The notes under the pieces: generated by a model | What the model was told of the DNA's origin: nothing | The model's input: only the letters and a program-made list of their open reading frames with translations | The model's database searches: none | NCBI RefSeq assembly: GCF_002902965.1 | Contig: NZ_CP026106.1 | Coordinates: forward strand, 1,240,001-1,304,000 | Direction: 5' to 3' | Length of the DNA: 64,000 bases | From: Paraburkholderia hospita | Lineage (GTDB): Bacteria; Pseudomonadota; Gammaproteobacteria; Burkholderiales; Burkholderiaceae | Made by a program: the position numbers and the translations under genes | In this document: positions 36,430-52,892 of the stretch, one piece after another | How positions within the stretch are numbered: the stretch's first letter is position 1 | How the letters are laid out: the number at the start of each line of letters is the position of its first letter

Positions 36430-38172
36430 CTAGTCCGCCCGCACCTTCACATACCGGCCAGGCGCCGGTTCGATCGGCCGGTGTTTCGTACTGCCCAGCC
36501 GCGTGCGCGCTTTCACCTGCTCGCCCGCATGCTGCTTCAGCCACACGATCCAATGGTTCCACCAGCTACCCGGCTGTTCTTCGGCGGACTCCAGCCATGC
36601 TCCGGCGTTGCTGGCAGACTCGTCGCTCGTCCAATAGCTGCGCTTGTTCTTCGAAGCAGGATTGATGACGCCAGCGATATGCCCGCTAGCGCCCAGCACG
36701 AATTCGACCTTACCGCCCAACAGTTGTGTCGAGCGCCACGCAGATTGCCATGGAACGATGTGATCCTCCTGCGTTGCAAGCAGATAGCCCGGCATGTCGA
36801 TGTGCTTGAGATCGACGGGCGTGCCGCACATCGTGAGCTTGCCGGGCACGCGGAGATTGTTCTCGAGATACATGTTACGCAGATACCAGCTATACATCGG
36901 CCCGGGAAGATTCGTCGTGTCCGCGTTCCAGTACAGCAGATCGAATGCGGCCGGCGTTTTGCCTTTCAGGTAGTTGTTCACGACGTACGGCCAGATCAGA
37001 TCGTTCGCGCGTAGCGTTTGAAAGGTGAAGCCGAGCTCACGTCCGGGATACAGCCCACCGCGGCCGATCGACTGCTCGCGCATCGAGACACCCGCTTCGT
37101 CGACGAATACGCCGAGGTCGCCCGGTTCGCTGAAGTCGAGCAACGCTGTCAGCAAGGTCACACTGGATACCGACTCGTCGCCATTGGCACGCATCACCGC
37201 GAGTGCGGACGACAGCATCGTACCGCCGACGCACCAGCCCAATGCATTGACCTTATCGGCGCGACTGATGGCGCGCGTCACTTCGATGGCCGTCATCACG
37301 CCATGTTCGAGGTAATCGTCCCAACTGGTATGAGCCTTCTGTGTGTCCGCATTGCGCCAGGACACCATGAACACGGTGAGACCCTGTTCATTGGCAAAGC
37401 GCACAAAGGAGTTCTGAGGCTGCAGGTCCAGAATGTAGAACTTGTTGATGCAAGGCGGGACGATCACGAGCGGGCGCTGCGCGACCGTTGGCGTGAGCGG
37501 TGCGTACTGGATCAGCTGGAACAGATCATTCTCGAATACCACCGACCCTTCGGACACCGCGACGCTGCGGCCCACTTCGAACGCGCTCTGATCGGTGATC
37601 GAAATGGTGCCTTGCTTCATATCCTCCAGCAGATGCGTGAGGCCCGCCAGCAAACTGCTACCGCTGGTTTCGAGCGCACGCCGGATCACTTCGGGATTGG
37701 TTGCAGCAAAATTCGAAGGACTCGCCAGGTCGATGAACTGCCGCATGTAAAAACGGAGTTTCTGTTTTTCCTTCTCATTCAACGCGCTCGCCTCGGTCAT
37801 GTCTTCGAGCATCTGGGCGTTGATCAGATAGTTTTCCTTCAGAAAGCCAAACCAGCCATTTCCGGACCATTCTTCGGCATGAAAGCGCCGGTCGCCACGC
37901 GTTGGCTCCACTACCGGATTCACGCCCGGCTTTGCGCCGAGCACGCGAGTCAAGGCGCTGTTCCAAAGCCCTGCTTGCTGTTGCCAGTATCGGGTGCTGG
38001 CACGCATCATGATGTTTCGAGCGCCGGATGCGACGGGATGGATCTCGTTGCCGTCGGTGTCCAATACGGTCATGTCGGGACCGTCGGTTAGCGGCAGTCC
38101 TCGCCAGAAATTGAAGCTGGCATCGAGCCAGCCTGTAGCGAACTCATCCGGCATGCTAAATAACATCTTCAT
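36430..38172 (-). CDS. phaC: Class I polyhydroxyalkanoate synthase
   Basis: A 580-residue PHA synthase. The lipase-like box GWCVGG carries the nucleophile Cys314; Asp470 (EDHIVPW) and His498 (SGHIAG) complete the triad, matching Cys319/Asp480/His508 of the Cupriavidus necator enzyme. Length and the N-terminal segment before the alpha/beta-hydrolase core (NWxxxFLKENYLINAQML region) fit class I, which polymerises short 3-hydroxyacyl-CoA. It follows phaJ by 15 bases in one operon; no phaA or phaB is nearby, so monomers would come via phaJ from beta-oxidation. The C-terminal tail (KARTRLGSTKHRPIEPAPGRY) is the usual synthase ending. Confidence 0.95.
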   Translation of the reverse strand: MKMLFSMPDEFATGWLDASFNFWRGLPLTDGPDMTVLDTDGNEIHPVASGARNIMMRASTRYWQQQAGLWNSALTRVLGAKPGVNPVVEPTRGDRRFHAEEWSGNGWFGFLKENYLINAQMLEDMTEASALNEKEKQKLRFYMRQFIDLASPSNFAATNPEVIRRALETSGSSLLAGLTHLLEDMKQGTISITDQSAFEVGRSVAVSEGSVVFENDLFQLIQYAPLTPTVAQRPLVIVPPCINKFYILDLQPQNSFVRFANEQGLTVFMVSWRNADTQKAHTSWDDYLEHGVMTAIEVTRAISRADKVNALGWCVGGTMLSSALAVMRANGDESVSSVTLLTALLDFSEPGDLGVFVDEAGVSMREQSIGRGGLYPGRELGFTFQTLRANDLIWPYVVNNYLKGKTPAAFDLLYWNADTTNLPGPMYSWYLRNMYLENNLRVPGKLTMCGTPVDLKHIDMPGYLLATQEDHIVPWQSAWRSTQLLGGKVEFVLGASGHIAGVINPASKNKRSYWTSDESASNAGAWLESAEEQPGSWWNHWIVWLKQHAGEQVKARTRLGSTKHRPIEPAPGRYVKVRAD

Positions 38173-38187
38173 ATCAAGTCCCGACCA

Positions 38188-38658
38188 TTACCTTTTATTC
38201 GCTGAAAGATCCGTGGATGTCTTGCTCAGCTCGTCGCGCGAAGTGGGCATGACGAGCGCGTCGCCTTCTATCACGACCTTGCCGCCGACCGTGCAGATCG
38301 TCGACATCACCACGCGGCGTTTCTCCGGAATCAGTTCCTTGATGGTCACTTCTGCGTGCACCGTATCGCCTGGGCGTACGGGGGCTTTGAAGCGAAGGTT
38401 CTGCCCAAGATAGACAGTGCCCGGACCCGGCAGCCGGCCGGCAATGGTCGCGGAGATGATGCTCGCCGTGAGCATCCCGTGCGCGATGCGCCCCTTGAAG
38501 GGCGTCGTCTGCGCGAATTGCTCGTTGATGTGAACCGCGTTCATGTCGCCCGACGCACCAGCGAACAACAGAATGTCGGCCTCCGTGATGGTCTTGGCAA
38601 AGCTGGCGCTCATACCAGGCTGCAGGTCTTCGTAGTCGTAACCGTTCAGTTCGTTCAT
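38188..38658 (-). CDS. phaJ: (R)-specific enoyl-CoA hydratase, MaoC/PhaJ family
   Basis: A 156-residue hot-dog-fold hydratase read from ATG 38658. Asp38 and His43 lie in AGASGDMNAVHINEQFA, the catalytic D-x4-H of (R)-hydratases, followed by the GRIAHGMLTAS segment. The enzyme converts trans-2-enoyl-CoA to (R)-3-hydroxyacyl-CoA, the direct substrate of PHA synthase. Upstream in-frame ATGs at 38697 and 38724 would lengthen it to 178 residues, without clear ribosome sites; the shorter form fits the family length. It precedes phaC by 15 bases, so monomer supply and polymerisation are coupled. Confidence 0.9.
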   Translation of the reverse strand: MNELNGYDYEDLQPGMSASFAKTITEADILLFAGASGDMNAVHINEQFAQTTPFKGRIAHGMLTASIISATIAGRLPGPGTVYLGQNLRFKAPVRPGDTVHAEVTIKELIPEKRRVVMSTICTVGGKVVIEGDALVMPTSRDELSKTSTDLSANKR

Positions 38659-38935
38659 GCGTTTTTCCAGTTGCCGGCGTGCATTCCCCACTTTCATCGT
38701 GTCTCGCACGTTATGGATCTGCATCGTTCGGTTAGTCCGAGCGGTTTGTCGTGCCTGATATCGTACTGTCAGGGTCCGTCGATGCCCGTGTCCAAACCTG
38801 CCGTTGCAGTGACAAAGCAGGCCATGCTGGCCATCAGGGCAATGCGGGATCGTCGCGCACTGGCGTGCGCCAGTGCGTCGAGATCAATGCTCCGGGTGGA
38901 AACCGACGCGGGTGATGACCGGGTCGGCGGTATCG

Positions 38936-39937
38936 TCATTTCAATCGGCTGTTTCGCCAGTCACGCGGCGTCACACGAAATTGCGAAGTGAACCACTTCG
39001 TGAACGAGCCTTGTTGCGAGTAGCCCAGCAGTGCTGAGACCCGGCCGATCGGATAGCGTGGATTGCTCATATAGCGCACGGCCAGTTCGCGCCGGACTTC
39101 CTCGACCAGCGTCGAGAAGCTGGTCTCCGCCGATTCGAGCTGACGCTGCATGGTGCGTACGCTCAGACCCAGCTGCCGCGAAACCAGCTCGACCGTGGCT
39201 TGCTCGAGCGGTAGCAGCAAATAAATCGCCTTGCGCACTTCGAGCGCAGCCGAGTCGGCACTCGCCGCGTTCATTGGCGTGGCGAGGCTTTCGGCGTATC
39301 GCACCAGTTCTGGATCAGCGGCAGGATTCGGGTAGTCGAGATCGGCCGCTGCACAGACGAAGCCGTTGAAGTCGCTTCCGAACTGCAGTGCACAGCCGAA
39401 GAACCGTCGATGAAACGTCAGGTCGGCAGGTCCGGCGTGAGTGAAATGGACAGTGCGCGGCTTCCAGTGGTCGCCGAGCAGGGCGCTGGCATGGCGTGCG
39501 AGCACGGCGACCGCCAGCTCGATCGCCTGCTTTGTCGGGGTGCCCGGTTCGACGACGAGTTCCTCCCTGATGGTGACCGTGTCGCCCGCGTTCTCGACGT
39601 AGACCGCCAGCGCTTCGTTGAGCAGATGCCGGTATTCGGCTGCGGCGAGCAGCACCTCGCGCAATGTGCGTTTGTGGGCGAGCAGGATATTGACCACGCC
39701 AGTCCCGAACTTCTGACGGGTTTCCGCCATTTGCAGGGCGAAGGTCGGGCAAGACGCCATATCGGCCGTCAGTTCGATGAGCCGGCAGCATGCGGTGGCC
39801 GGAACCCGATCGTCGGGATTGGCGAGCGCTGCCGCATCGATCCCGAACTGCTGCACGAGCTCGAACGGGTTCAGTCCGAGCCGCCGTGCCACATCGAAAT
39901 AGCCGCCCATCGCCACCGACCGCAACATCGTTTCCAT
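38936..39937 (-). CDS. AraC-family transcriptional regulator with arabinose-binding-like N domain
   Basis: A 333-residue AraC/XylS regulator of the OruR/ArgR-like type. The N-terminal 200 residues resemble the AraC-type arabinose-binding domain family (PF12625), with FGIDAAALANPDDRVPATACCRLIELTADMASCPTFALQMAE. The C-terminal domain holds two helix-turn-helix units, VELVSRQLGLSVRTMQRQLESAETSFSTLVEEVRRELAVRYM and YPIGRVSALLGYSQQGSFTKWFTSQFRVTPRDWR. GGGAG precedes the ATG. It is divergent from the BKACE-to-porin cluster starting at 40144, and reads toward phaJ, so it is the likely activator of that cluster. Confidence 0.92.
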   Translation of the reverse strand: METMLRSVAMGGYFDVARRLGLNPFELVQQFGIDAAALANPDDRVPATACCRLIELTADMASCPTFALQMAETRQKFGTGVVNILLAHKRTLREVLLAAAEYRHLLNEALAVYVENAGDTVTIREELVVEPGTPTKQAIELAVAVLARHASALLGDHWKPRTVHFTHAGPADLTFHRRFFGCALQFGSDFNGFVCAAADLDYPNPAADPELVRYAESLATPMNAASADSAALEVRKAIYLLLPLEQATVELVSRQLGLSVRTMQRQLESAETSFSTLVEEVRRELAVRYMSNPRYPIGRVSALLGYSQQGSFTKWFTSQFRVTPRDWRNSRLK

Positions 39938-40143
39938 CGCTACTCCCGCTTGAACGTGTGGGCCGCCAACTCGCGCCAGCTACAGGCTAGGTGTTTTCAC
40001 GGAGTGGCATGCAACGCTAAAACAATGGCGCCCAATCACAAAAGTGTAGCGCGTGATTCCCGTACTGTGCGGATATCGGTTCTGGTGTTTTCGCTGATGC
40101 GACGCGCCACCGGAACATCCTCACCCCACACCGGAGACAAAAG

Positions 40144-41199
40144 ATGCAGTTTCTCGACGATTCGCTCCACCCGGAGAACCAGGACAAGGTTGTCATCACC
40201 ACCGCGCCGTACGGTCCGGAATGGATGCCGGCTGACTTCCCGGAAGACATTCCGGTGACGATGGACCAGCAGGTCCAGAAGGCCGTCGACTGCTACAACG
40301 CTGGCGCCACGGTGCTTCACCTGCACGTGCGCGAACTGGACGGCAAGGGCTCGAAGCGCCTGTCCAAGTTCAACGAACTGATCGCGGGTGTGCGCGCCGC
40401 CGTGCCCGACATGATTATCCAGGTGGGCGGTTCGATATCGTTTGCACCGGAAAACGACGGACAGGCCGCGAAGTGGCTCTCCGACGATACGCGTCACATG
40501 CTGGCCGATCTCGACCCGAAGCCGGACCAGGTGACGGTCGCGATCAACACGACGCAGATGAACATCATGGAGCTGCTCTATCCGGAGTACCTGGCAGGCA
40601 CCTCGCTGTCCAATCCGGCGTTCATGGCCGCGTACAGCGAAATGACCGTGCCTGCGGGTCCGGCATGGGTCGAGGAACATCTGCGCCGCCTGCAGGCCTC
40701 GGGCATTCAGCCGCACTTCCAGCTCACGGGCATCCACGCGCTCGAAACGCTGGAGCGCCTCGTGCGCAAGGGCGTCTACAAGGGGCCGCTGAACCTGACA
40801 TGGATCGGCATCGGCGGCGGCTTCGACGGCCCGAACCCGTTCAATTTCTTCAATTTCGTGCATCGCGCGCCGGACGGCTGCACGCTGACTGCTGAGTCGT
40901 TGCTCAAGAACGTGTTGCCGTTCAACATGATGGCAATGTCGATGGGTCTGCATCCTCGCTGCGGTATCGAAGACACGATCATCGATCAGCACGGCAATCG
41001 CTTCACGTCGGTGCAGCAGATCGAGCAGTGCGTGCGCGTCGCGCGCGAACTCGGGCGCGAAATTGCCACCGGCAAGGAAGCACGCGAGATCTACCGCATC
41101 GGCGTGCAGTACGAGACGGCCGATGAGACGCTCGCGGCCAACGGCATGGCGCCGAACCGCGAGACGGGCGTCAGGAACCTGCCGCTGCGCGCGGCGTGA
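40144..41199 (+). CDS. Beta-keto acid cleavage enzyme (BKACE/DUF849)
   Basis: A 351-residue BKACE-family protein. The metal-binding HxH pair is His59 and His61 in TVLHLHVRELDGKGS. These Zn2+-dependent TIM-barrel enzymes condense a beta-keto acid with acetyl-CoA, giving acetoacetate and a new acyl-CoA; known substrates include 3-keto-5-aminohexanoate and dehydrocarnitine. The GGSISFAPENDG and GIGGGFDGPNPFNFFNFVHRAPDG segments line the substrate pocket and may define a subfamily different from Kce. CCGGAG precedes the ATG. It is the first gene of the colinear cluster; its specificity would set the final degradation step. Confidence 0.92.
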   Translation: MQFLDDSLHPENQDKVVITTAPYGPEWMPADFPEDIPVTMDQQVQKAVDCYNAGATVLHLHVRELDGKGSKRLSKFNELIAGVRAAVPDMIIQVGGSISFAPENDGQAAKWLSDDTRHMLADLDPKPDQVTVAINTTQMNIMELLYPEYLAGTSLSNPAFMAAYSEMTVPAGPAWVEEHLRRLQASGIQPHFQLTGIHALETLERLVRKGVYKGPLNLTWIGIGGGFDGPNPFNFFNFVHRAPDGCTLTAESLLKNVLPFNMMAMSMGLHPRCGIEDTIIDQHGNRFTSVQQIEQCVRVARELGREIATGKEAREIYRIGVQYETADETLAANGMAPNRETGVRNLPLRAA

Positions 41200-41249
41200 T
41201 GGTGGGCGTGCAGTCCAGGCGGTAGTTGTCGCCGGTTTCAAAGGCGGGA

Positions 41250-41325
41250 CTCCCCGGTTAGCGCCGGGGAGCGAGTTGCGATATCCATAAGCGGTCGCTG
41301 TGCCCTGAGGGCAAAGACGGCCGCT
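41250..41325 (+). other. Two intergenic hairpins between BKACE and MFS genes
   Basis: CTCCCCGG (41250-41257) pairs with CCGGGGAG (41264-41271). A second stem, AGCGGTCG (41290-41297) with CGGCCGCT (41318-41325, one wobble pair), encloses a small GCCC/GGGC hairpin. They lie inside what is otherwise one transcription unit, so they may adjust relative expression or stabilise mRNA ends instead of terminating. Confidence 0.6.
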
Positions 41326-41351
41326 ATCAAGCGGGACGAAGGAGACACATC

Positions 41352-42671
41352 ATGCTCATGCAGCATGCCGAACCCACGGCGGGCAATGTACCCGTCACAC
41401 AAGCGGACGTGCGCGGCTATGCATGGATCGTATTTGCCCTGACGGTCGGGCTGTTGCTCTCCGACTACATGTCGCGGCAGGTGTTGAACGCCGTGTTTCC
41501 GCTGCTCAAGGCCACATGGGGCCTTTCCGATACCCGGCTGGGTTCGCTGAGCAGCGTGGTCGCGCTGATGGTCGGCGTGCTCACCTTTCCGCTGTCGGTG
41601 CTTGCCGATCGCTGGGGGCGCGTGAAGAGCATCGTCCTGATGGCGGCGATGTGGAGTCTCGCGACGCTGGGCTGCGCGATCTCGACGAACTATGGCGAGA
41701 TGCTGCTGGCGCGGGCGTTCGTCGGTATCGGCGAAGCTGCCTACGGCAGTGTCGGGATCGCAGTGGTCCTGAGCATTTTCCCCGCACGGCTGCGCTCCAC
41801 GCTGACGGGCGCGTTCATGGCGGGCGGGGCGTTCGGCTCAGTGCTGGGCATGGCACTGGGCGGCGCGGTCGCGGCCCAGATGGGCTGGCGTATGGCGTTT
41901 GGCGCGATGGCGGCACTGGGGATCGTGCTGGTGATCGTCTACCGGCTCGTCGTTACCGAACAGCGTCTCGCGCTGCTGCAGCCGGCAAGCCTGAACAAGG
42001 CGGAAGGGCTCGGTGTGCGGATGAGCCTGCGCGCGCTGATGAAGGGGCTGTTCTCGACGAAGTCCGTCGTGTGCGCTTATGTCGGCAGCGGTATCCATCT
42101 GCTGGTTCCCGCCGCTGTGTGGGCGTGGATGCCGAGCTTTCTGAATCGCTACTACGGCATGCCCATCGGCAAGGCCGCGACGAGCGCGGCAGTGTTCGTG
42201 CTGGTGACGGGCGTTGGCATGGTGGTGTGCGGCAGTCTCGCCGACCGGCTCAGCAAGAATGGACGCGAACGCAAGTGGAGCGCTGCTATCGCCTTCTGCC
42301 TGGCGTCCTTCACGCTGCTCGCGATTGGCTTTCGCATGCCAGCGGGTCCGTTGCAACTGATGGTGATCGGCGTTGGCATGTTCTTCTGCGCAGGGGCGAG
42401 CGGCCCGTCGGGTGCGATGGTGGCCAACCTCACGCCGCCGTCGATACATGCATCGGCGTTTGCGACCCTGACGCTCGCGAACAACCTGCTGGGTCTGGCA
42501 CCCGCTGCCGTGCTCACAGGCGTCATTGCCGACCGGCTCGGACTGCTCGGCGCATTGCAACTCGTGCCGTTTGCACCGCTCATCGCAGCTATCGCGTTCT
42601 TTATCGGCAAGCGGAACTACGCGAGCGATCTCGATCGCCTGAATACGCTGCGCGAAGAGGCCGCACACTGA
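41352..42671 (+). CDS. MFS transporter, probable importer of the cluster substrate
   Basis: A 439-residue major facilitator with about 12 helices. QVLNAVFPLLKATWGLSDTRLGSLSSVVALMVGVLTFPLSVLADRWGRVK contains motif A (LADRWGRVK) and AYGSVGIAVVLSIFPARLRSTLTGAFMAGGAFGSVLG covers the TM4-5 region. The pattern is that of MFS carriers for organic acids or aromatics (ACS/AAHS-like). GAAGGAG lies 7 bases before the ATG at 41352. Being the second gene of the catabolic cluster, it probably imports the substrate across the inner membrane, with the porin at 47317 serving the outer membrane. Confidence 0.9.
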   Translation: MLMQHAEPTAGNVPVTQADVRGYAWIVFALTVGLLLSDYMSRQVLNAVFPLLKATWGLSDTRLGSLSSVVALMVGVLTFPLSVLADRWGRVKSIVLMAAMWSLATLGCAISTNYGEMLLARAFVGIGEAAYGSVGIAVVLSIFPARLRSTLTGAFMAGGAFGSVLGMALGGAVAAQMGWRMAFGAMAALGIVLVIVYRLVVTEQRLALLQPASLNKAEGLGVRMSLRALMKGLFSTKSVVCAYVGSGIHLLVPAAVWAWMPSFLNRYYGMPIGKAATSAAVFVLVTGVGMVVCGSLADRLSKNGRERKWSAAIAFCLASFTLLAIGFRMPAGPLQLMVIGVGMFFCAGASGPSGAMVANLTPPSIHASAFATLTLANNLLGLAPAAVLTGVIADRLGLLGALQLVPFAPLIAAIAFFIGKRNYASDLDRLNTLREEAAH

Positions 42672-42747
42672 TTGATCCATGGCAACGCGTGCGTTACGCC
42701 GCGGGCCAAAACTAATTCGCAGTTGAGTAATGGATAGGAGATTCAAC

Positions 42748-43728
42748 ATGGCAAAGGCAGTGCGCTTCCATGAAACGGGTGGTCCCGAAGTCTTGCGCTA
42801 CGAGGACGTTGAAGTGGGCGATCCCGGCCCAGGGCAGGTCCGCCTGCGTCACGAGGCAGTCGGCCTGAATTTCGCCGACACGTATTTCCGCAGCGGCCTC
42901 TACCCGGTCCCACTGCCTGCAGGCATGGGCGTCGAGGCGGCGGGCGTGGTCGAATCGATTGGCCCGGGTGTGACGAACGTCGCGGTGGGCGATCGCGTGA
43001 CTTACACGGGTTTCGTCAATACGCTCGGCGCCTATAGCACCGAACGCCTGGTTCCAGCGGGTCCGCTCATCAAGCTGCCCGATGCGATCTCCAGCGAAAC
43101 GGCTGCTGGCATGACCATGCGCGGCCTGACCGCGTCGTATCTGATGCGCCGTATCCATGACTTCAAGGCGGGCGACGTCATTCTGCTGCATGCCGCTGCG
43201 GGTGGCGTTGGGCTGATCGTGTCGCAATGGGCGAAGCTGCTGGGTCTGACCGTGATCGGCACGGTTTCGACGGAAGCCAAGGGCGAGATTGCCCGCGCGC
43301 ATGGCTGCGACCACGTCGTCTACTACGGCCGGGAGAACGTTGCGAAGCGCGTGCGTGAACTGACGGATGGCGTCGGCGTGAACGTGGTGTTCGACAGCGT
43401 CGGCAAGGATACCTTTGAGGCTTCACTCGATTCGCTCAAGCGTCGCGGTCTGATGGTCTGCGTAGGCACGGCGTCGGGTCCGATCCCGCCGTTCAATCCG
43501 CAGATGCTGGCGGTGAAAGGCTCGCTGTATATGACTCGCCCGGCGCTGGCCGACTATATCGCCGACCCCGTCGAAAAGAACGAACTGGCAGGCGAAATCT
43601 TCGGGCATATCGCCGCGGGCCGCATCAAGATCGAGCTCAACCAGCGCTACGCGCTCGAGGATGCGGCGCAAGCGCACCGCGACCTGGAAGCGCGCAAGAC
43701 GACCGGCTCATCGGTCTTCGTCATCTGA
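42748..43728 (+). CDS. qor: NADPH:quinone oxidoreductase-type zinc-free MDR enzyme
   Basis: A 326-residue protein of the medium-chain dehydrogenase/reductase superfamily, quinone oxidoreductase branch. There are no structural or catalytic zinc cysteines. MAKAVRFHETGGPEVLRYEDVEVG begins the GroES-like domain, and HAAAGGVGLIVSQWAKLLGL is the Rossmann nucleotide loop (AxxGGVG). Y-x-x-x-R-like residues typical for NADPH binding follow. TAGGAG precedes the ATG at 42748. In this cluster it could reduce an alpha,beta-unsaturated intermediate. General quinone detoxification is the alternative. Confidence 0.92.
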   Translation: MAKAVRFHETGGPEVLRYEDVEVGDPGPGQVRLRHEAVGLNFADTYFRSGLYPVPLPAGMGVEAAGVVESIGPGVTNVAVGDRVTYTGFVNTLGAYSTERLVPAGPLIKLPDAISSETAAGMTMRGLTASYLMRRIHDFKAGDVILLHAAAGGVGLIVSQWAKLLGLTVIGTVSTEAKGEIARAHGCDHVVYYGRENVAKRVRELTDGVGVNVVFDSVGKDTFEASLDSLKRRGLMVCVGTASGPIPPFNPQMLAVKGSLYMTRPALADYIADPVEKNELAGEIFGHIAAGRIKIELNQRYALEDAAQAHRDLEARKTTGSSVFVI

Positions 43729-43738
43729 GGAACATGCC

Positions 43739-44587
43739 ATGCAAGTCGAACCCTTGACGTGTACGATCGGCGCCGAACTGACGGGCGTGCATCTCGCCGA
43801 TGCGATCCACGATGACGGCCTGTTTGCGGAAATCCGTGCGGCGCTGCTGAAACACCGCGTGGTGTTCCTGCGCGACCAGGAGATCACGCGCACCGAGCAT
43901 GTTGCGTTTGCGCGCCGGTTCGGAGAACTGGAAGATCATCCCGTCGCAGGCAGCGATCCGGATCATCCGGGCCTCGTGCGCATCTACAAGAATCCGGACC
44001 AGCCCAACGACCGCTACGAAAACGCTTGGCACGCCGACGCCACCTGGCGGGAAGCGCCGCAGTTCGGCGCGGTGCTGCGTTGCGTGGAGTGTCCGCCCGT
44101 GGGCGGCGACACGATGTGGGCGAATATGGTCCTCGCCTACGAGAACCTGCCGGAGCACATCAAGACGCAAATCGCGGACTTGCGTGCCCGCCACAGTATC
44201 GAGGCGAGTTTCGGCGCCGCGATGCCCATCGAGAAACGCCTCGCACTGAAGGCGCAATTCCCGGACGCGGAGCACCCGGTGGTGCGCACGCACCCTGAAA
44301 CAGGCGAGAAGGTGTTGTTCGTGAATGCTTTCACCACGCATTTCACCAACTATCACACGCCGGCACGAGTGCGCTTCGGGCAGGACGCGAATCCGGGTGC
44401 GGGCGATCTGCTGCGCTATCTGGTCAGCCAGGCTTACCTACCCGAGTACCAGGTGCGCTGGCGCTGGAAGCCGAACAGCATCGCGATATGGGACAACCGC
44501 AGCACGCAACACTATGCGGTGATGGACTACGCGCCGTGCCATCGCAAGATGGAGCGCGCCGGGATTATCGGCGACAAGCCGTATTGA
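43739..44587 (+). CDS. TauD/TfdA-family 2-oxoglutarate/Fe(II) dioxygenase
   Basis: A 282-residue member of the TauD/TfdA family. The iron facial triad is visible as His98 and Asp100 (WHADATW) with His258 (STQHYAV); Arg273 (KMERAGI) fits the 2-oxoglutarate carboxylate. The N-terminal TCTIGAELTGVHLAD and VVFLRDQEITRTEHVAFARRFGELEDHP stretches are standard. Such enzymes hydroxylate substrates next to S, N or O heteroatoms so that they split (taurine, 2,4-D, alkyl sulfates). GAGGA lies before the ATG, 10 bases after qor. In this cluster it would perform the first oxygen-dependent attack. Confidence 0.93.
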   Translation: MQVEPLTCTIGAELTGVHLADAIHDDGLFAEIRAALLKHRVVFLRDQEITRTEHVAFARRFGELEDHPVAGSDPDHPGLVRIYKNPDQPNDRYENAWHADATWREAPQFGAVLRCVECPPVGGDTMWANMVLAYENLPEHIKTQIADLRARHSIEASFGAAMPIEKRLALKAQFPDAEHPVVRTHPETGEKVLFVNAFTTHFTNYHTPARVRFGQDANPGAGDLLRYLVSQAYLPEYQVRWRWKPNSIAIWDNRSTQHYAVMDYAPCHRKMERAGIIGDKPY

Positions 44588-44606
44588 TGGGAAAGGCAAC
44601 GTCGTC

Positions 44607-45167
44607 ATGACTCTCGGTATCACACCCACCATTCTGATCGTGCCGGGCTTGCGCGATCACGTCGCCGGGCATTGGCAAACGCTGCTGGAGCAGACGTTGC
44701 CGAACGCGGCTTCCGTGCCGCCGCTCGAATACGACGGGCTCAGTTGCGCGGCGCGTGTCGCGGCACTCGATGCGGCGCTCGCGAAAATCGACGGCCCGGT
44801 GATTCTGGTGGCGCATAGCGCGGGCGTGATGATCACGGTGCATTGGGCGAGGCAGCACGACCGCAAGATTCACGGTGCGCTGCTCGCAGCGCCTGCCGAC
44901 CTCGAAACGCCGCTGCCGGCTGGCTATCCGACTTTCGATGCGCTCGCAGTGAATGGCTGGCATCCCATTCCGCGCGAACGGCTGCCGTTTCCGAGCATCG
45001 TGGGCGCGAGCCGCAACGATCCGCTCGGGAAGTTCGAGCGTGTGGAAGCGATGGCGCATGACTGGGGCAGCCGTCTCGTCGATCTCGGCGAAGTCGGTCA
45101 CCTCAATCCCGCTGCGGGCTTTGGCGAATGGCCGATGGCGACGACGCTGATCCGCGAGTTGCTCTGA
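44607..45167 (+). CDS. RBBP9/YdeN-family serine hydrolase
   Basis: A 186-residue small alpha/beta hydrolase of the RBBP9/YdeN type. Ser71 is the nucleophile in VAHSAG, the Asp sits in GASRNDPLG, and the His in VGHLNPAAGFGEW. The N-terminal ILIVPGLRDHVAGHWQT matches the oxyanion-hole signature of this family. Function in other bacteria is poorly known; esterase or amidase activity on small molecules is likely. It follows the dioxygenase by 19 bases. It could release a product or hydrolyse a CoA thioester arising in the pathway. Confidence 0.9.
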   Translation: MTLGITPTILIVPGLRDHVAGHWQTLLEQTLPNAASVPPLEYDGLSCAARVAALDAALAKIDGPVILVAHSAGVMITVHWARQHDRKIHGALLAAPADLETPLPAGYPTFDALAVNGWHPIPRERLPFPSIVGASRNDPLGKFERVEAMAHDWGSRLVDLGEVGHLNPAAGFGEWPMATTLIRELL

Positions 45168-45206
45168 GCTGACTGTTACCTCATTTGGCAAGAAAAGGAG
45201 CCTGCG

Positions 45207-45617
45207 ATGTCACGTCAGGTAGGGATCGGTGTTGCCGGCGAAATCGAACCGGGCCAGCGCAAGCGGGTATTCGTCGACGGTCGATGCATCGTGGTTTTCA
45301 ACGTCGATGGTGCGATTTACGCGATCGACGACTCGTGCCCGCACAACGGCGCGTCGCTCGGGAATGGTCAGCTGGAAGGGTGCGTACTGCGCTGTCCCGC
45401 ACACGGCCTGCGTTTCGATCTGCGCACGGGATGCACGCCCGGAACGGGCGGCTTGAGCCTCATCAGGTTCGCCGTTGAGACAGTCGATTCGAAGCTGGTC
45501 CTGAATCTCGACGAACAGAACACAGTGCTGACGAACGTGACAGGCGGCAATGCAGCAGGACAACCGGAAGCGCGGCAGTGCGCGACCAGACAGGAGAAGC
45601 AACAATGCAAGGTTTGA
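45207..45617 (+). CDS. Stand-alone Rieske [2Fe-2S] ferredoxin
   Basis: A 136-residue Rieske protein. The cluster ligands are Cys44 and His46 (CPHNGA) and Cys63 and His66 (CPAH), the ordinary C-x-H/C-x2-H pair. It has no membrane anchor, so it resembles the soluble ferredoxins of multicomponent dioxygenases. The last 30 residues, after VLNLDEQN, are low complexity and of unknown purpose. AAAGGAG precedes the ATG. Its 3' end overlaps the start of the ligase gene by 13 bases. No Rieske-type oxygenase or ferredoxin reductase is in this window, so the electron partner is unclear. Confidence 0.93.
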   Translation: MSRQVGIGVAGEIEPGQRKRVFVDGRCIVVFNVDGAIYAIDDSCPHNGASLGNGQLEGCVLRCPAHGLRFDLRTGCTPGTGGLSLIRFAVETVDSKLVLNLDEQNTVLTNVTGGNAAGQPEARQCATRQEKQQCKV

Positions 45618-47233
45618 TGATGCAGCAGCCGCTGCTGGTCGCGTCGCTGCTCACGCATGCGGAACGTCATCACGGTGGGCAGGAAATCGTGTCGCGACGC
45701 GTCGAAGGGGATATTCACCGCTATTCGTACCGGGACCTCGCGCAACGCGCACGCGGCATGGCCAATGCGCTTGCCGCCCTCGGCATCGAGCAAGGCGAGC
45801 GGGTAGGGACGCTCGCATGGAATGGCTACCGCCATATGGAGCTTTACTTTGCCGTGTCGGGTTCCGGCGCCGTGTTGCATACGCTCAACCCACGGCTGCA
45901 TGTCGATCAGCTCGCGTACATCATCGAGCACGCGCAGGATCGCATCGTGTTCTTCGACCTCACGTTCCTGCCGTTGATCGAGAGCGTCGCGTCGCGCGTG
46001 AAAAGCCCGAAGATTTTCGTCGCGATGACCGATCGGGCGCACATGCCGACAACGCATGGCCTGTCCTCGATGCTGATGTGCTATGAGGATCTCATCGATC
46101 TTCACCATGATGTATTCGAATGGCCGCTGCTCGACGAAAACAGCGCCTCGTCGCTGTGCTACACGTCGGGCACCACGGGCAATCCGAAGGGCGTGCTGTA
46201 CAGCCACCGCTCGACCGTGCTGCACACCTATGCGGCAGCGTTGCCCGATTCGCTCAACTGTTCGGCGCGCGATGCAATTCTCCCCGTCGTGCCGATGTTC
46301 CATGTGAACGCATGGGGATTGCCGTATATCGCGTGTATGGTCGGCGCAAAGCTGGTGTTTCCGGGGCCGGCGCTCGACGGTAAATCCCTCTACGAACTGA
46401 TCGAAGCAGAGCAGGTCACCTTGTCGGCGGGTGTGCCGACGGTCTGGCAGGGACTGCTCGCACACGTCGACGCGATCAAGGGTGCGTTCTCGCATATGAG
46501 GCGCACGATCGTCGGCGGCGCAGCGTGTCCGACTGCGATGACGGCCGCATTCAGGGAGTCTCATCGCGTCGAGGTCCTGCACGCCTGGGGAATGACGGAA
46601 TTGAGCCCGGTCGGCACGGTCTGTAGTCTCAAGGCGCATCAGCTTTCGCTGCCTGTCAGCGAGCGTTACGCGGTCCAGGCGAAGCAGGGGCGCGGGGTGT
46701 TCGGCATCGACATGAAGATCGTCGATGCGGATGGCAACGCGTTGCCGTGGGACGGCATTGCGGCGGGCGATCTGCTGGTGCGCGGTCCGTGGGTCGCGAG
46801 GGAGTACTTTGGCAGCGAAGGCCAGTCGCCGCTGCGCGACGGCTGGTTTCCGACGGGCGACATCGCAAGGATCGACGCTGATGGTTTCATGCAGATCACC
46901 GATCGCAGCAAGGACGTCATCAAGTCGGGCGGAGAATGGATCAGTTCGACCGACATCGAAAACGTCGCGTGCCTGCACCCCGACGTGACGACTGCCGTCT
47001 GCATTGCCGCGCGGCATGCGAAGTGGGACGAACGGCCGTTGCTGCTGATCGTGAAGAAGCCGGGAAGCGGGCTGGACGCGAACGGAGTGCTGGCTTTCCT
47101 CGACGGACGCATTGCCCGATGGTGGAAACCCGACGCCGTGGTGTTCGTCGATACCGTTCCTATCGGCGCAACCGGCAAGGTGCTCAAGAACCAGTTGAGA
47201 GATCAATTCGGCGACTACTACCTGACGGCCTGA
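45605..47233 (+). CDS. AMP-forming acyl-CoA synthetase (medium/long-chain type)
   Basis: A 542-residue acyl-adenylate-forming ligase. The P-loop is YTSGTTGNPKGV, followed by HAWGMTELSPVG (A5 motif), DGWFPTGDIARIDADG (A7) and ITDRSKDVIKSGGEWIS (A8); GATGKVLKN gives the C-terminal catalytic lysine. It closely recalls medium-chain fatty-acid and 3-methylmercaptopropionate CoA ligases. The ATG at 45605 has GGAGAAGC upstream and overlaps the Rieske gene. It would activate the cluster's carboxylic-acid substrate or product to a CoA thioester, the form that feeds beta-oxidation and, via enoyl-CoA, phaJ. Confidence 0.93.
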   Translation: MQGLMMQQPLLVASLLTHAERHHGGQEIVSRRVEGDIHRYSYRDLAQRARGMANALAALGIEQGERVGTLAWNGYRHMELYFAVSGSGAVLHTLNPRLHVDQLAYIIEHAQDRIVFFDLTFLPLIESVASRVKSPKIFVAMTDRAHMPTTHGLSSMLMCYEDLIDLHHDVFEWPLLDENSASSLCYTSGTTGNPKGVLYSHRSTVLHTYAAALPDSLNCSARDAILPVVPMFHVNAWGLPYIACMVGAKLVFPGPALDGKSLYELIEAEQVTLSAGVPTVWQGLLAHVDAIKGAFSHMRRTIVGGAACPTAMTAAFRESHRVEVLHAWGMTELSPVGTVCSLKAHQLSLPVSERYAVQAKQGRGVFGIDMKIVDADGNALPWDGIAAGDLLVRGPWVAREYFGSEGQSPLRDGWFPTGDIARIDADGFMQITDRSKDVIKSGGEWISSTDIENVACLHPDVTTAVCIAARHAKWDERPLLLIVKKPGSGLDANGVLAFLDGRIARWWKPDAVVFVDTVPIGATGKVLKNQLRDQFGDYYLTA

Positions 47234-47316
47234 CACGCGAACCTGAGAGGCACGCGTTCATTTGATCAAACAACGACCGGGAACATCCCGGCACTTATAG
47301 AACCAGAGGAGACAAG

Positions 47317-48462
47317 ATGAAACTGAAGTTATGCTGCGCTGCTGCGCTGGCGATTTTCGCCACGGTGGCCCATGCGCAATCGTCGGTCACGCTGTATGGC
47401 GTCATCGACACCGGGATGCTGTATCAGAGCACGTCGGCGGCAACGTTCCAGCCGCATGCGCCTAACCTCGGCCACGTTTACCAGCTCAAGGACGGCGGTA
47501 TCTACGCCAGCTTCTGGGGGCTCAAGGGAAGCGAGGATATCGGCGGCGGCTACAAGATCAACTTCAAGCTGCAGGGCGTATTCAACTCCACGAACGGCAA
47601 GTTCGGTCTCGCCGATACGCCCGGCACGACCGCGATCTTCAACCAGTTTGCGACGGTCGGGGTATCCGGGCCATTCGGAACATTCGACGCCGGACGGCAG
47701 ATCATCCCGATGATCTACGCGATGGCCGAAACCGACGTGCGCGGCGCGCAGTATTTCGGCAGTATCCTGACTGCATGGCTTGGCATCAATCAGGCGGCCG
47801 GCTGGCCCGGCACCAGCACCAACGCGCCGATCGGCGCCCTGTATGACAGCAATGCGCTCGTCTACAACTCGCCGAAATTTTATGGTGCTTCGCTTGCACT
47901 CGAGTACGCGCCGGGCGGCGTCGCGGGTCAGTTCCAGGGCGGTACGCGTGAATCCGCCGTGCTCAAATATTCGAACTACGGTCTGAATCTGTCTGCCGTG
48001 TACTACAACGGACACGATACCAATCCGTTCCCGCTGACGTATCCGGCCGCTCCCGCCGTGCCCGCGACAGGTCTCGCCAACAACCGTTTCTACTATTTTG
48101 GCGCGATGTACACGATCAGCGGGTTTTCGATATCCGCGTCTTACGGCATCGGCAAGAATCCGGCAAAAAGCAATACTGCCGATTTCGAAATGATATCGGG
48201 CGGCCTTGGCTACCAGTTCAACCCTAGCTTCAAGGTTACGTCCGGCTACTACTACCTGAAGGACCGGAACAATTCAGCGAACCACTCGAGCGAATTCGCA
48301 GTGGGCGCGGAATACAACCTGTCCAAACGGACCAAGGCCTACGCGCAGGTCGGCTATGTCGACAACAAGGGGACCATGAACCAGACGATCATCTACGGCG
48401 CGCCGGTTGCGCCGGGAGAGTCCACCACTGCGGCAATGGTCGGCATTCGCCATGCGTTCTGA
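47317..48462 (+). CDS. Gram-negative trimeric porin
   Basis: A 381-residue outer-membrane porin. A signal peptide (LKLCCAAALAIFATVAHA) is followed by QSSVTLYGVIDTGM, the invariant start of the Burkholderiales porin barrel. GLKGSEDIGGGYKINFKLQG, FGTFDAGRQ and a terminal aromatic residue (IRHAF) are further hallmarks. GAGGAG lies before the ATG. It is the last gene of the cluster, 83 bases after the ligase, and most likely lets the substrate cross the outer membrane; the different loop composition compared with the porin at 4440 suggests different selectivity. Confidence 0.93.
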   Translation: MKLKLCCAAALAIFATVAHAQSSVTLYGVIDTGMLYQSTSAATFQPHAPNLGHVYQLKDGGIYASFWGLKGSEDIGGGYKINFKLQGVFNSTNGKFGLADTPGTTAIFNQFATVGVSGPFGTFDAGRQIIPMIYAMAETDVRGAQYFGSILTAWLGINQAAGWPGTSTNAPIGALYDSNALVYNSPKFYGASLALEYAPGGVAGQFQGGTRESAVLKYSNYGLNLSAVYYNGHDTNPFPLTYPAAPAVPATGLANNRFYYFGAMYTISGFSISASYGIGKNPAKSNTADFEMISGGLGYQFNPSFKVTSGYYYLKDRNNSANHSSEFAVGAEYNLSKRTKAYAQVGYVDNKGTMNQTIIYGAPVAPGESTTAAMVGIRHAF

Positions 48463-48492: not shown

Positions 48493-48882
48493 ATGAAAGA
48501 CAATCACATAGTTGAACTGGCCGTCGCGCTATTGTTCGTCGCAGCGTCCATGAATGCATGGCCCCAGTCGGGTCAGCCAGCAAGTGGGCCTGCCAGTGTA
48601 CCGGGCGCATCCGCGATGACGGCGTCCGGCGCAGCCGCACCGGCTACCGGAAGGAAAGCAGATAGAGCGCTGCGTCGGAAAGTGTATGCGGCCATTGGAA
48701 AGCAAAAGGAGATCAGTGCCGGGGATATCGGCGTCACCGCGAAAGACGGCGCGATAACGTTGTATGGCTCGGTTACCGATGCATCGCAGATCGACAAGGT
48801 CGTGGAGCTCGCGAAAGGCGTTCCGGGCGTGACTTCGGTGACTAACAAACTGGCTGTGAAGAAGCCTCTCGGCGGGATGTAG
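48493..48882 (+). CDS. BON-domain exported protein
   Basis: A 129-residue periplasmic protein. Its N-terminal hydrophobic segment (IVELAVALLFVAASMNAWP) acts as signal peptide, a Pro/Ala/Ser-rich spacer follows, then one BON domain (about residues 55-123: LRRKVYAAIGKQKEISAGDIGVTAKDGAITLYGSVTDASQIDKVVELAKGVPGVTSVTNKL). BON domains bind phospholipid or envelope surfaces, as in OsmY. GGGAG precedes the ATG. It lies 30 bases after the porin and may be cotranscribed, but is a general envelope-stress type protein. Confidence 0.88.
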   Translation: MKDNHIVELAVALLFVAASMNAWPQSGQPASGPASVPGASAMTASGAAAPATGRKADRALRRKVYAAIGKQKEISAGDIGVTAKDGAITLYGSVTDASQIDKVVELAKGVPGVTSVTNKLAVKKPLGGM

Positions 48883-49043
48883 GCGGTCTTGGTCGGTGGC
48901 GGTGACGATGTGTGAGTCGGAGTAGCGGGCCGCAATCGTAACTAAAGTCCTCTTCGCCTCTTGCTTCAAGCCGAGCCGTTTGAAACAGGCGGATAAAAGG
49001 CTTTCGCGATCGACGTTTCCGGTTCCGGGCAGAGGCGCAGAAA

Positions 49044-50894
49044 CTACCGTTCATTCAAGGGCGAGGTTGTGTCAGGCACCCAGATCTGAACACAGTTGCG
49101 TCCGTGATTCTTGGCTGCGTACAACGCTGCGTCGGCGCGTTCCTGTGTTGCGCTGAGATCGCTTTCTTTCTCATCGTACAGGGCGATGCCGATGCTGAGC
49201 GTTTGCGAAACCGTAGCTCCGGATTCGAGCGATATAGGCGTGTCCTGCACGGCGATACGAATGCGTTCGGCGATCGTTCGCGCCTGTTCGAGATCGGTAT
49301 CCAGCAGGATCGCGGCAAATTCTTCGCCTCCAAGCCTGGCCGCCAGATCGTCTTCGCGAAGTGCATTCTCGAACGACCGGGCGGTCACCTGAAGCACGCG
49401 ATCGCCGGCCGCATGTCCCCACGTGTCGTTGACGCGTTTGAAGAAATCCAGGTCCAATGCCAGAACGGATAGCGGCCGGTGATGACGTCGCGCGTGTTCG
49501 ACTGCTTTTTCGGCTGCCTTTGCGAAATACCGGCGATTGGCGAGCCCGGTCAGCGCATCGAAGTCGGCTTCTGTCCGAAGTTGTTTAAGCAATTGATGTT
49601 GATGGGTGATATCCACCAGTGTGACGAGTAGTGAATCCGGTTCATCTCCTTTATCACCTGTTCGAAGCCGGGTGCAATGCACGAGCATGTGCCGGATTCC
49701 GTCACGCGTGAGAAGAGGAACGGGCTCGTCCGTAACGACTTCACGCACTCGCGTCCAACTGCCGGCGTCGACAAAGAGCCGGGAAAACGGTTGGCCCTTA
49801 CCGGCTACGGCGCCAAACAGCGCAAGCAGCGCTTCATTGGCCAGCACGATATTCTCCGTTTTGATGTCGACGATCGTGACGGGTGTCGGCATGTTTTGCA
49901 CGATGGTCAATACCGTGCCCGCAAATCCCTCGATTCGATCGTGCAGGCGGTGCTCACGCTGGATAAGCAGCACGCCGCCCGCCAACATCAGAAGGAGCAG
50001 GGTAGTCCCGGCGAGATTGATGTACATGCTGTTCCGCAGACTGTCGCGGTAGCCGCTGACGGCGTAACCGACGTCCAGTGTCCAGTAACCGGCGGCCGGT
50101 CCCAACACTATCCTGCGCGTCGCGACGAGGCGCTCGGTCGGGTCAAAACTCCAGCGCGCATAGTGAGTGCCCGGGATTGGTCCTTGGCGAGCAGCATTGT
50201 CTTCAACGAGTTCATGCCCGATTGCCAATCCGGAATAGCGGGGATAGCGCGCGATAACACGATGCTCGCTGTCGCTCAATATGATCGCGGTGCCATTCAC
50301 CAGCTTCACGCCTTCGAGCAGGTGCTGTTCGAGGGGAATCAGATAGACCGCGATGGCATCGAATTTCCCCGCCCGGTTGCGATGGCCTTCTGCTACGACC
50401 AGCGCGCCGCTTTGCCTCCACACAACAGGTAGCCAGAGATGGGTAGCGGGGGCGGCGCGTACCGTGTCCAGGATGGTAGTGAAGTTCGATATTTCGTTGC
50501 GGATGCCGGTGCGAGATCCAGCGATAAGGCGCGCACTCCCGTCAAACACGGCAATCGACGCATCGCCTAGCGACTCCTTTAGCGTGTCAGTTACATCGTG
50601 GAGAGATTTATCGGTGAGGTTGTCTGCGTCGATCAGGGTTCGCGTGACAGCCATCATCCCATTGAGATCCCGGAGGCGGTCTTCGACCAGCCGTTGGATA
50701 AGAGAAGTCTGTACATCCAGACGCTGTGCGGCCTGTTGATCGGCCGCCCGAAAGTCATGCAAGGACTGGTAGGTATTGACCACGATATTTGAAGCAACCA
50801 GCACGGCAAATACGGGCAACGCTTTCCGCAGCCACGACTTGCGCATGACGGGATTAAGCGACCAGCTAACAGTCGTGTTGAATGATCGCAGCAT
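49044..50894 (-). CDS. Diguanylate cyclase with Cache-like sensor, PAS and GGDEF domains
   Basis: A 616-residue membrane signalling protein. A helix at about 24-40 leads to a periplasmic Cache-type sensor (about 45-285), a second helix (about 291-311), a PAS domain (about 325-440) and a GGDEF domain (about 445-605). The active-site motif is GGEEF (522-526), with the inhibitory site RxxD (Arg513-Asp516) five residues before it, so the enzyme should make c-di-GMP and be feedback-inhibited. An alternative start is ATG 50846. It is 36 bases downstream of the EAL gene on the same strand, so synthesis and breakdown of c-di-GMP are encoded together. Confidence 0.93.
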   Translation of the reverse strand: MLRSFNTTVSWSLNPVMRKSWLRKALPVFAVLVASNIVVNTYQSLHDFRAADQQAAQRLDVQTSLIQRLVEDRLRDLNGMMAVTRTLIDADNLTDKSLHDVTDTLKESLGDASIAVFDGSARLIAGSRTGIRNEISNFTTILDTVRAAPATHLWLPVVWRQSGALVVAEGHRNRAGKFDAIAVYLIPLEQHLLEGVKLVNGTAIILSDSEHRVIARYPRYSGLAIGHELVEDNAARQGPIPGTHYARWSFDPTERLVATRRIVLGPAAGYWTLDVGYAVSGYRDSLRNSMYINLAGTTLLLLMLAGGVLLIQREHRLHDRIEGFAGTVLTIVQNMPTPVTIVDIKTENIVLANEALLALFGAVAGKGQPFSRLFVDAGSWTRVREVVTDEPVPLLTRDGIRHMLVHCTRLRTGDKGDEPDSLLVTLVDITHQHQLLKQLRTEADFDALTGLANRRYFAKAAEKAVEHARRHHRPLSVLALDLDFFKRVNDTWGHAAGDRVLQVTARSFENALREDDLAARLGGEEFAAILLDTDLEQARTIAERIRIAVQDTPISLESGATVSQTLSIGIALYDEKESDLSATQERADAALYAAKNHGRNCVQIWVPDTTSPLNER

Positions 50895-50930
50895 AGTTCG
50901 CCAAAGTCAGGGGCCCGCATTCACCGCATT

Positions 50931-52526: not shown

Positions 52527-52892
52527 CTGGCAAGTCCTGTTGTGGACAACCGCGGAGGAGAACGCGCATGACACGCTGCCGTCCGATCGCGATCGAACGC
52601 GCGGCATCATGATGTCAGCGTAAATCATAGTATCTGACGCTATTTTTTCAATGCATCCATACCTGTGCCGTTTCGAAGAAACACGTTCGGTACGCTGAAT
52701 TCATTGACTGTCGCACCCCGTGGTATTGGAGTGGCTCGCGCTATTTTCAATGCAACTGCATCGTGCATCCGCTACACGGATGGGTTTGCGAAAACCTCCG
52801 ATCCCCGTCGGCAATCTGCGGGAGAAGACTATGCTTTACTTGCGGGTGAAGCCGTCTGAATGTCGATGTCAAGTCAGTCCAGGGGAACTACG
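52527..52892. other. Divergent intergenic region
   Basis: A 366-base gap between the EAL gene and a small lipoprotein gene, holding both promoters. A small dyad GTTTC-GAA-GAAAC lies at 52670-52682. No other structure or credible gene was seen; a 64-codon frame at 52665 lacks a ribosome site. Confidence 0.45.

Follow-up and report, generated by a model that had tools for sequence, protein, structure and literature searches.

A candidate organosulfonate catabolic cluster pairing a TauD-family dioxygenase with a divergent BKACE enzyme in Paraburkholderia hospita

Background

Enzymes of the BKACE family convert a beta-keto acid and acetyl-CoA into acetoacetate and an acyl-CoA, as described in passages of two papers (PMC6365646, PMC11961710). 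In deoxyribonate catabolism of Paraburkholderia and Pseudomonas, a BKACE is predicted to give acetoacetate from a keto acid that comes from an SDR, and PMC6365646 mentions neither TauD nor quinone. Another member of the family (DUF849/BKACE), the Flavophos enzyme BsfD, is biosynthetic and, according to a passage of PMC12871164, transfers an acetyl group to a phosphonate without cleavage. Here we analysed a 64,000-nucleotide stretch of Paraburkholderia hospita DNA (assembly GCF_002902965.1, contig NZ_CP026106.1, positions 1,240,001 to 1,304,000 of the forward strand; hereafter the window), in which a divergent BKACE gene lies in one cluster with the gene of a TauD/TfdA-family dioxygenase, next to a divergent AraC-family regulator gene. 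We propose, at slightly less than an even chance, that this is a catabolic cluster for an organosulfonate, in which TauD desulfonates a 3-sulfo acid and BKACE cleaves the resulting beta-keto acid.

To our knowledge, most described routes of sulfonate use deal with sugar sulfonates or small C2-C3 ones. In soil, organic sulfur is present mainly as sulfonates and sulfate esters, according to the abstract of PMC4267179.

The proposed route and the genes of the cluster

The substrate would enter through the porin and the MFS transporter. TauD would then hydroxylate the sulfonate-bearing carbon, beta to the carboxylate, whereupon sulfite departs and a beta-keto acid remains; by the chemistry of its family the reaction would be R-CH(SO3-)-CH2-COO- + O2 + 2-oxoglutarate -> R-CO-CH2-COO- + sulfite + succinate + CO2. 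BKACE is predicted to catalyse R-CO-CH2-COO- + acetyl-CoA -> R-CO-CoA + acetoacetate, and acetoacetate would be activated by a ligase or CoA-transferase before being cut by thiolase. In some hosts the acyl-CoA product may be propionyl-CoA. Perhaps Qor reduces an enone or quinone, and the RBBP9-like hydrolase perhaps releases the acid from an ester. What the data show directly are the genes, their synteny and homology, and their active-site residues, whereas the two reactions, the substrate and any roles of Qor, the hydrolase and the ferredoxin are predictions. The scheme would follow that of carnitine breakdown, except that the sulfonate, as leaving group, would replace the separate beta-hydroxy-acid dehydrogenase. 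We consider desulfonation followed by cleavage the most economical reading. It explains the TauD-BKACE pairing without a dehydrogenase, the presence of an xsc-type exporter in many copies of the cluster, and the acetoacetate-handling genes.

The genes are as follows (profile scores in bits against the cut-off of the model).

38936..39937, minus strand: AraC-family regulator (PF12625 and PF12833 above cut-off)
40144..41199, plus strand: BKACE-family enzyme of a divergent subfamily (PF05853, 206.3 against 24.8)
41352..42671, plus strand: MFS transporter, predicted to take up an organic anion (PF07690)
42730..43728, plus strand: Qor, NADPH:quinone reductase-like MDR enzyme (NF008024, 365.7 against 348)
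43739..44587, plus strand: TauD/TfdA-family Fe(II)/2-oxoglutarate dioxygenase, predicted desulfonating oxygenase (PF02668)
44607..45167, plus strand: RBBP9/YdeN-like serine hydrolase (PF06821)
45207..45617, plus strand: Rieske-type [2Fe-2S] ferredoxin (PF00355; C-x-H...C-x2-H motif in the translation)
45605..47233, plus strand: AMP-forming acyl-CoA ligase (NF005426, 905.3 against 822; PF00501)
47317..48462, plus strand: general outer-membrane porin, Porin_4 (PF13609)
48493..48882, plus strand: probable BON-domain protein (open reading frame 30 bp after the porin gene; the homologue in locus L044 is annotated as BON domain)

A conserved core of Qor, TauD and BKACE

An earlier note on this DNA had proposed a search for the same gene order in other Burkholderiaceae, and the core of the cluster was found there and well beyond. 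Ninety loci were compared, namely the best 80 of 570 contig loci plus 10 plasmid loci, all picked by BKACE similarity, so that the presence of BKACE is given by construction. Genes were counted by tblastn at a loose threshold (E 1e-8, half coverage), and several loci are broken by contig ends. Qor, TauD and the MFS transporter were each found in 81 of the 90, AraC in 74, the RBBP9-like hydrolase in 70 and the Rieske ferredoxin in 63, followed by the AMP-forming ligase (46), the porin (45), a DsbA-family protein (45), the BON protein (37) and a YeiH-type exporter (28); paralogues are included in the figures for MFS, AraC, ligase and porin. In a set of 103 loci, made up of the 90 and 13 further ones (some of which may duplicate species already present) and judged by stricter rules, Qor and TauD were adjacent on one strand in 85, with a median gap of 14 bp between tblastn ends. 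In 90 of the 103, TauD and BKACE were at most 10 kb apart, and in 48 the two abutted directly. The conserved core of the cluster thus consists of Qor, TauD and BKACE, and it is present in Burkholderiales, Azoarcus, Pseudomonas, Aeromonas, Citrobacter, Novosphingobium, Rhodococcus, Tsukamurella and Streptomyces.

The association was also compared with that of other BKACEs. Among 398 evenly drawn Pseudomonadota genomes, 16 including the source genome had this BKACE at E 1e-90 or better, and all BKACE, TauD and YeiH matches were located in the other 15. TauD was found within 10 kb of 15/19 subfamily BKACEs and of 3/15 others (Fisher p 0.0014), and YeiH within 10 kb of 7/19 and 0/15 (Fisher p 0.011; about 0.11 neighbours expected by chance), the p-values being optimistic since the genomes are related. 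One of the three other BKACEs near a TauD was inspected and belongs to a gamma-butyrobetaine/carnitine operon. These counts leave out 5 of 39 BKACE rows, four of them fragments under 700 bases and the fifth, G431:C3:5120-5950, a probable subfamily member beside TauD; with all five added to the other BKACEs, the figures become 6/20 for TauD (p 0.0036) and 0/20 for YeiH (p 0.0033). The source genome (11.5 Mb, 6 contigs) has 7 BKACE and 6 TauD genes, and its sole pair within 10 kb is this cluster. Chance clustering was rejected on the Qor-TauD adjacency and the 15-genome control. Mirror-tree correlations were moderate, that of TauD and BKACE (0.58) lying below many other pairs, and were not used as evidence.

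Tandem or repeated TauD-BKACE pairs were seen in two loci (L109, 5800-11053; L137, 2406-19596), with 62-86% identity to the BKACE and 72-86% to the TauD of the window, which suggests diversification toward several related substrates. More distant BKACEs (47-50%) in L139 and L047 stand beside carboxymuconolactone-decarboxylase-like genes. L139 also has a Rieske ferredoxin, and the examined stretch of neither locus contains a TauD; these neighbours are possibly an older partner set.

The TauD-family dioxygenase

Residues H67, H98, D100, H258, R269 and R273 are invariant in all 14 aligned TauD sequences, that of the window included, and H98, D100, H258 and R269 supply the HxD...H iron triad and the 2-oxoglutarate arginine. 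Equivalents of H70 and R270 of Escherichia coli TauD are kept, and those of Y73 and D94/N95 are not; the former we take to be anion-binding residues, and the latter presumably surround the amine end of taurine. Among solved chains, PDB 5VN6 is a close orthologue and E. coli TauD comes next, scoring well above AtsK and Rv3406, which were also matched; PlaO1 is likewise among the closest solved relatives. The score against the taurine dioxygenase model NF007104 was 251.3 bits, under the cut-off of 313. The window's enzyme may work like TauD, though not classed as a taurine dioxygenase. Simple use of taurine was rejected on this score and on the lack of a Tau transporter in the cluster. The deposited name of 5VN6 is only 'taurine dioxygenase', and may not reflect its function.

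Four loci (L163, L164, L132 and L134) combine a TauD of this subfamily with a neighbouring 2,4'-dihydroxyacetophenone-dioxygenase-like cupin and alpha/beta hydrolase (57-59% alike in L132 and L163, about 30% in L134). This may be an alternative module, perhaps an oxygenolytic replacement for BKACE.

The BKACE enzyme

Positions were assigned by alignment to 2Y7D. H59, H61, R272, E276 and D277, which we take to be the HxH...E zinc site and the catalytic Arg and Asp, are invariant in 29 aligned members; the more distant relative in L139 has Glu at the position of D277. At the positions of Kce E143 and Y145 the window's BKACE has Q193 and T195, that is, neither the Glu nor the Tyr. Glu stands at the E143 position in 5/6 BKACE paralogues of the source genome, and since Phe takes that of Tyr145 in 4/6, Tyr145 is not a sharp criterion. 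Both positions lie on the substrate side. There is also a 2-residue deletion and an altered loop after the 'IIQV' strand. With Gln in place of E143 and the neighbouring changes, a cationic substrate such as dehydrocarnitine would be less favoured; these changes do not single out the acid that is cleaved.

A sulfite-type exporter in relatives of the cluster

A YeiH-type exporter gene (PF03601, best NCBIfam match YeiH) was found in 28 of the 90 loci: 21 from Pseudomonas, 3 from Oxalobacteraceae and 1 each from Aeromonas, Novosphingobium, Rhodococcus and Cupriavidus. According to PMC12880088, sulfite resistance in Salmonella depends mainly on yeiH, the growth defect of the mutant being specific to sulfite and not sulfate.

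The gene xsc makes sulfite from a sulfonate. A plasmid search with the exporter of the Pseudomonas cluster retrieved 187 records, and five of the 25 listed were opened; in four (three Paracoccus, one Cereibacter) the exporter gene lies between xsc and pta, immediately downstream of the former and upstream of the latter, and in the fifth, a P. aeruginosa plasmid, no xsc was present in the examined stretch. In a quick maximum-likelihood tree of 49 exporters, one group (SH-aLRT 100) holds 30 of the 32 BKACE-linked copies, the P. aeruginosa plasmid copy, the four xsc-linked copies and one background copy; 11 background copies are separate from it. No xsc was found among the families of the cluster itself in Pfam and NCBIfam profile searches.

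The plasmid NZ_CP093017.1 of the river strain P. aeruginosa H15 (L164, L145) carries a large sulfonate-type island, in which about 60 kb include the exporter, DUF1302/DUF1329/MMPL genes, thiolases, beta-oxidation genes and a ligase of the same name as that of the window. It also encodes a SoxC sulfite dehydrogenase above the model cut-off and three TauDs, two of them distant and one 65.6% identical to the window's, paired with a 2,4'-dihydroxyacetophenone-dioxygenase-like cupin. The exporter, SoxC and the TauDs are confined to some 30 kb of the plasmid. From the YeiH and SoxC context in these relatives we infer release of sulfite by TauD, and the relatives point to organosulfonates as the substrate class.

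In a midpoint-rooted TauD tree of 98 rows, 8 changes are required to account for the presence of YeiH, and starred branches force 6 of these. TauDs of Burkholderiaceae, the window's included, branch among those of YeiH-bearing Pseudomonas and Oxalobacteraceae. The lineage of the window could accordingly have lost the exporter gene, but the tree does not show it.

Predicted fate of the carbon

An acetyl-CoA-dependent step by BKACE, as the earlier note had it, is predicted here as well; some relatives have acetoacetate-activating genes inside their clusters. An acetoacetate-CoA ligase (AACS) gene occurs in the Streptomyces locus, and the 3-oxoacid CoA-transferase genes scoAB lie inside four loci, those of Aeromonas lusitana (checked by model), two Pseudomonas and one further genome (tblastn). 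In Caballeronia grimmiae, methylcitrate-cycle (prp) genes follow the Rieske gene on the same strand after 16 bp, and in A. lusitana such genes lie next to the cluster in divergent orientation; this suggests a propionyl unit. According to PMC11961710, BKACE15 accepts beta-ketopentanoate; with that substrate the product would be propionyl-CoA.

Upstream of the AraC gene, on the minus strand, are genes for a PhaC-type polymerase (36430-38172) and a MaoC/PhaJ-like protein (38188-38724), homologues of both being present in the examined stretch of nine other Paraburkholderia-type loci. PhaC homologues were found in 18 of the 90 loci, nine of them at 57-80% identity. The phaC/MaoC pair and the prp genes of two relatives suggest where the carbon goes, and do not name the substrate.

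Alternative explanations

Several observations weigh against desulfonation followed by cleavage. The equivalents of H70 and R270 are also present in PlaO1, so they are compatible with a desulfonating enzyme and not diagnostic of one; we know of no desulfonase activity of PlaO1. BsfD, a homologue of the BKACE, transfers acetyl rather than cleaving, and the window's BKACE has Thr at the Tyr145 position. The exporter of the relatives scores 168.7 against the NCBIfam YeiH cut-off of 232.6 and occurs in just 28 of the 90 loci, 21 of them Pseudomonas; by tblastn of the 90 loci there is no YeiH gene in the window's cluster or in any Paraburkholderia/Caballeronia locus. The source genome has its own PF03601 genes at other sites, and neither of the two included in the tree belongs to the xsc-linked group. 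The four xsc-linked exporters all come from Paracoccus or Cereibacter and are not independent, the tree program warned of long branches, and the Rhodococcus and one Cupriavidus BKACE-linked exporter fall outside the xsc-linked group while one background copy belongs to it. In the examined stretches of NZ_CP093017.1 no gene is annotated as BKACE, and the SoxC query was unmatched in all other loci, so that a SoxC-type sulfite dehydrogenase was seen on the P. aeruginosa plasmid only.

Rather unlikely, though the best of the alternatives, is a sulfur-free substrate for TauD, which would then oxidise an ether, an amine or, like gamma-butyrobetaine hydroxylase, an unactivated beta-carbon; BKACE would still cleave the resulting beta-keto acid, and YeiH in the relatives would serve another anion. 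The TauD superfamily carries out all of these oxidations, the carnitine operon is a known pairing of the TauD superfamily with BKACE, PlaO1 is a close relative and the window's cluster has no YeiH. However, the xsc-type exporter in Pseudomonas, Oxalobacteraceae, Aeromonas, Novosphingobium and others, and the SoxC-bearing plasmid, would then be unexplained, and the core has no conserved beta-hydroxy-acid dehydrogenase to turn the hydroxyl into a ketone.

If the substrate were instead an acid with a beta-sulfate ester (alkyl sulfate), TauD could act like AtsK and Rv3406 and give the beta-keto acid plus sulfate, for which these two TauD-family matches and the annotation of the exporter family as sulfate exporter could be cited. 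This we hold to be improbable: E. coli TauD clearly outscores both AtsK and Rv3406 among the solved chains, and four of the five opened exporter homologues lie beside xsc, a sulfite producer. Moreover, the Salmonella yeiH defect concerns sulfite, not sulfate (passage of PMC12880088).

About as improbable, if not slightly more so, is a different order or chemistry, with BKACE acting on a still-sulfonated compound, or acetylating carbon as BsfD does, and TauD acting later. A passage on BsfD, which transfers acetyl to a phosphonate without cleaving (PMC12871164), lends this some plausibility, as do the 2-residue deletion, the loop change after 'IIQV', E143 to Gln and Y145 to Thr. AACS and scoAB in some relatives fit a true cleavage, though, and all 29 aligned members keep the zinc ligands, the Arg and the Asp that the cleaving enzyme has.

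A carnitine or betaine route, although BKACE and TauD superfamilies both take part in carnitine breakdown, is highly improbable and was rejected, bearing out the doubt of the earlier note: the cluster proteins matched neither the carnitine dehydrogenase nor the gamma-butyrobetaine dioxygenase model (the latter unmatched by TauD at E 0.001), Gln stands at the E143 position of BKACE, and genome G116 carries this cluster plus a separate carnitine operon whose proteins, as a control, score above both model cut-offs.

Other substrates were considered. No support was found for juglone or other naphthoquinones, for sorgoleone, for dibenzothiophene desulfurisation or for plant-exudate sulfur genes; in PMC8557817, PMC11852219 and PMC10256816, consulted on the last two, the passages on dibenzothiophene contain no link to the cluster. 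Lignosulfonates and surfactants were an idea only, on which the literature yielded nothing relevant.

Gene layout and regulatory region

All eight genes of the earlier note were located where it put them, colinear on the plus strand and divergent from the AraC gene, with every named domain above its Pfam cut-off. A ninth gene, encoding the BON protein, follows the porin gene. As it lies 30 bp past the porin on the same strand and has homologues in 37 of the 90 loci, the unit probably comprises nine genes. Gaps mostly under 90 bases had been described, together with one overlap; the gaps indeed measure 10-83 bp save for 152 bp between BKACE and MFS, while the overlap was placed anew. The longest TauD open reading frame begins at 43661, within Qor, but the start at 43739, 10 bp past the end of Qor, is most likely, since most relatives begin at the corresponding residue and 5VN6 lines up with it too. 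The single true overlap would then be the 13 bp between the Rieske and ligase genes, 45605 being the likelier start of the ligase.

No NCBIfam equivalog lies above its cut-off for the AraC regulator in the profile search of the cluster proteins. The best NCBIfam match of the MFS transporter, TIGR00893, scores 107.7 bits, under the cut-off of 395. The ligase exceeds the cut-off of NF005426, a model named 3-(methylthio)propionyl-CoA ligase (DmdB), and may have that activity; it is absent or of a different type in many relatives. Within the cluster there is no oxygenase partner for the Rieske ferredoxin. The idea of a full catabolic route with its own inner- and outer-membrane uptake stands in part: the genes appear to form one catabolic module with its own regulator and transporter and with predicted TauD and BKACE steps, while outer-membrane uptake is not a general trait. 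The porin was found in 45 of the 90 loci at the loose threshold, its place being taken by DUF1302/DUF1329 in most Pseudomonas loci and by a TonB receptor in the Novosphingobium locus. Downstream of the BON gene (within 48493-52628) the minus strand carries GGDEF and EAL-CSS genes.

The gap between the AraC and BKACE genes contains one further feature.

39989..40070: operator/promoter-like block (MAFFT), GGTGTT...AGTGGC...AAAAGTGTA.CGC...CCGTA in the window

This block of about 80 bp is largely kept in the window and 14 Paraburkholderia/Caballeronia-type loci, picked among loci with the same divergent layout, with several positions differing in four of them (L050, L052, L072, L073). It looks like an AraC operator plus promoter; a sigma-70 consensus scan of the gap found no promoter.

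Comparison with known systems

No description of the cluster was found in the open-access literature, subscription papers being outside that scope, and within it the statement that the combination is not a described pathway holds. We regard the cluster as a variant of known enzyme logic, apparently undescribed. If desulfonation is indeed coupled to BKACE, this would be a new pathway for organic-sulfur recycling, would account for an orphan BKACE subfamily of several bacterial classes, and would suggest a function for 5VN6. More tentatively still, the cluster may stand for a widespread aerobic mineralisation of secondary (beta-) sulfonates, with one-step ketone formation by TauD, a dedicated BKACE subfamily, and tandem pairs for related sulfonates.

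The gamma-butyrobetaine/carnitine operon also combines a TauD-superfamily oxygenase with a BKACE in one operon, and in both systems acetyl-CoA would serve to cleave a beta-keto acid. In contrast, the cluster described here has other TauD and BKACE subfamilies, no dehydrogenase, Gln at the E143 position, and a sulfite-type exporter in some relatives. BsfD, of the same DUF849/BKACE family, is among the solved matches of the BKACE (9zsc group). With the E. coli taurine dioxygenase TauD the window's enzyme shares the family, the iron and 2-oxoglutarate residues and the H70/R270 equivalents; it differs in lying in a catabolic-type cluster with AraC, BKACE and Qor and no Tau ABC transporter, and in not keeping the amine-end residues. 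The Xsc-type dissimilation of taurine and isethionate with a YeiH-like exporter has in common with it the exporter group found in most YeiH-bearing relatives; whereas those systems have xsc and pta, here both are lacking, and the C-S bond is predicted to be broken by TauD and the carbon to pass through BKACE.

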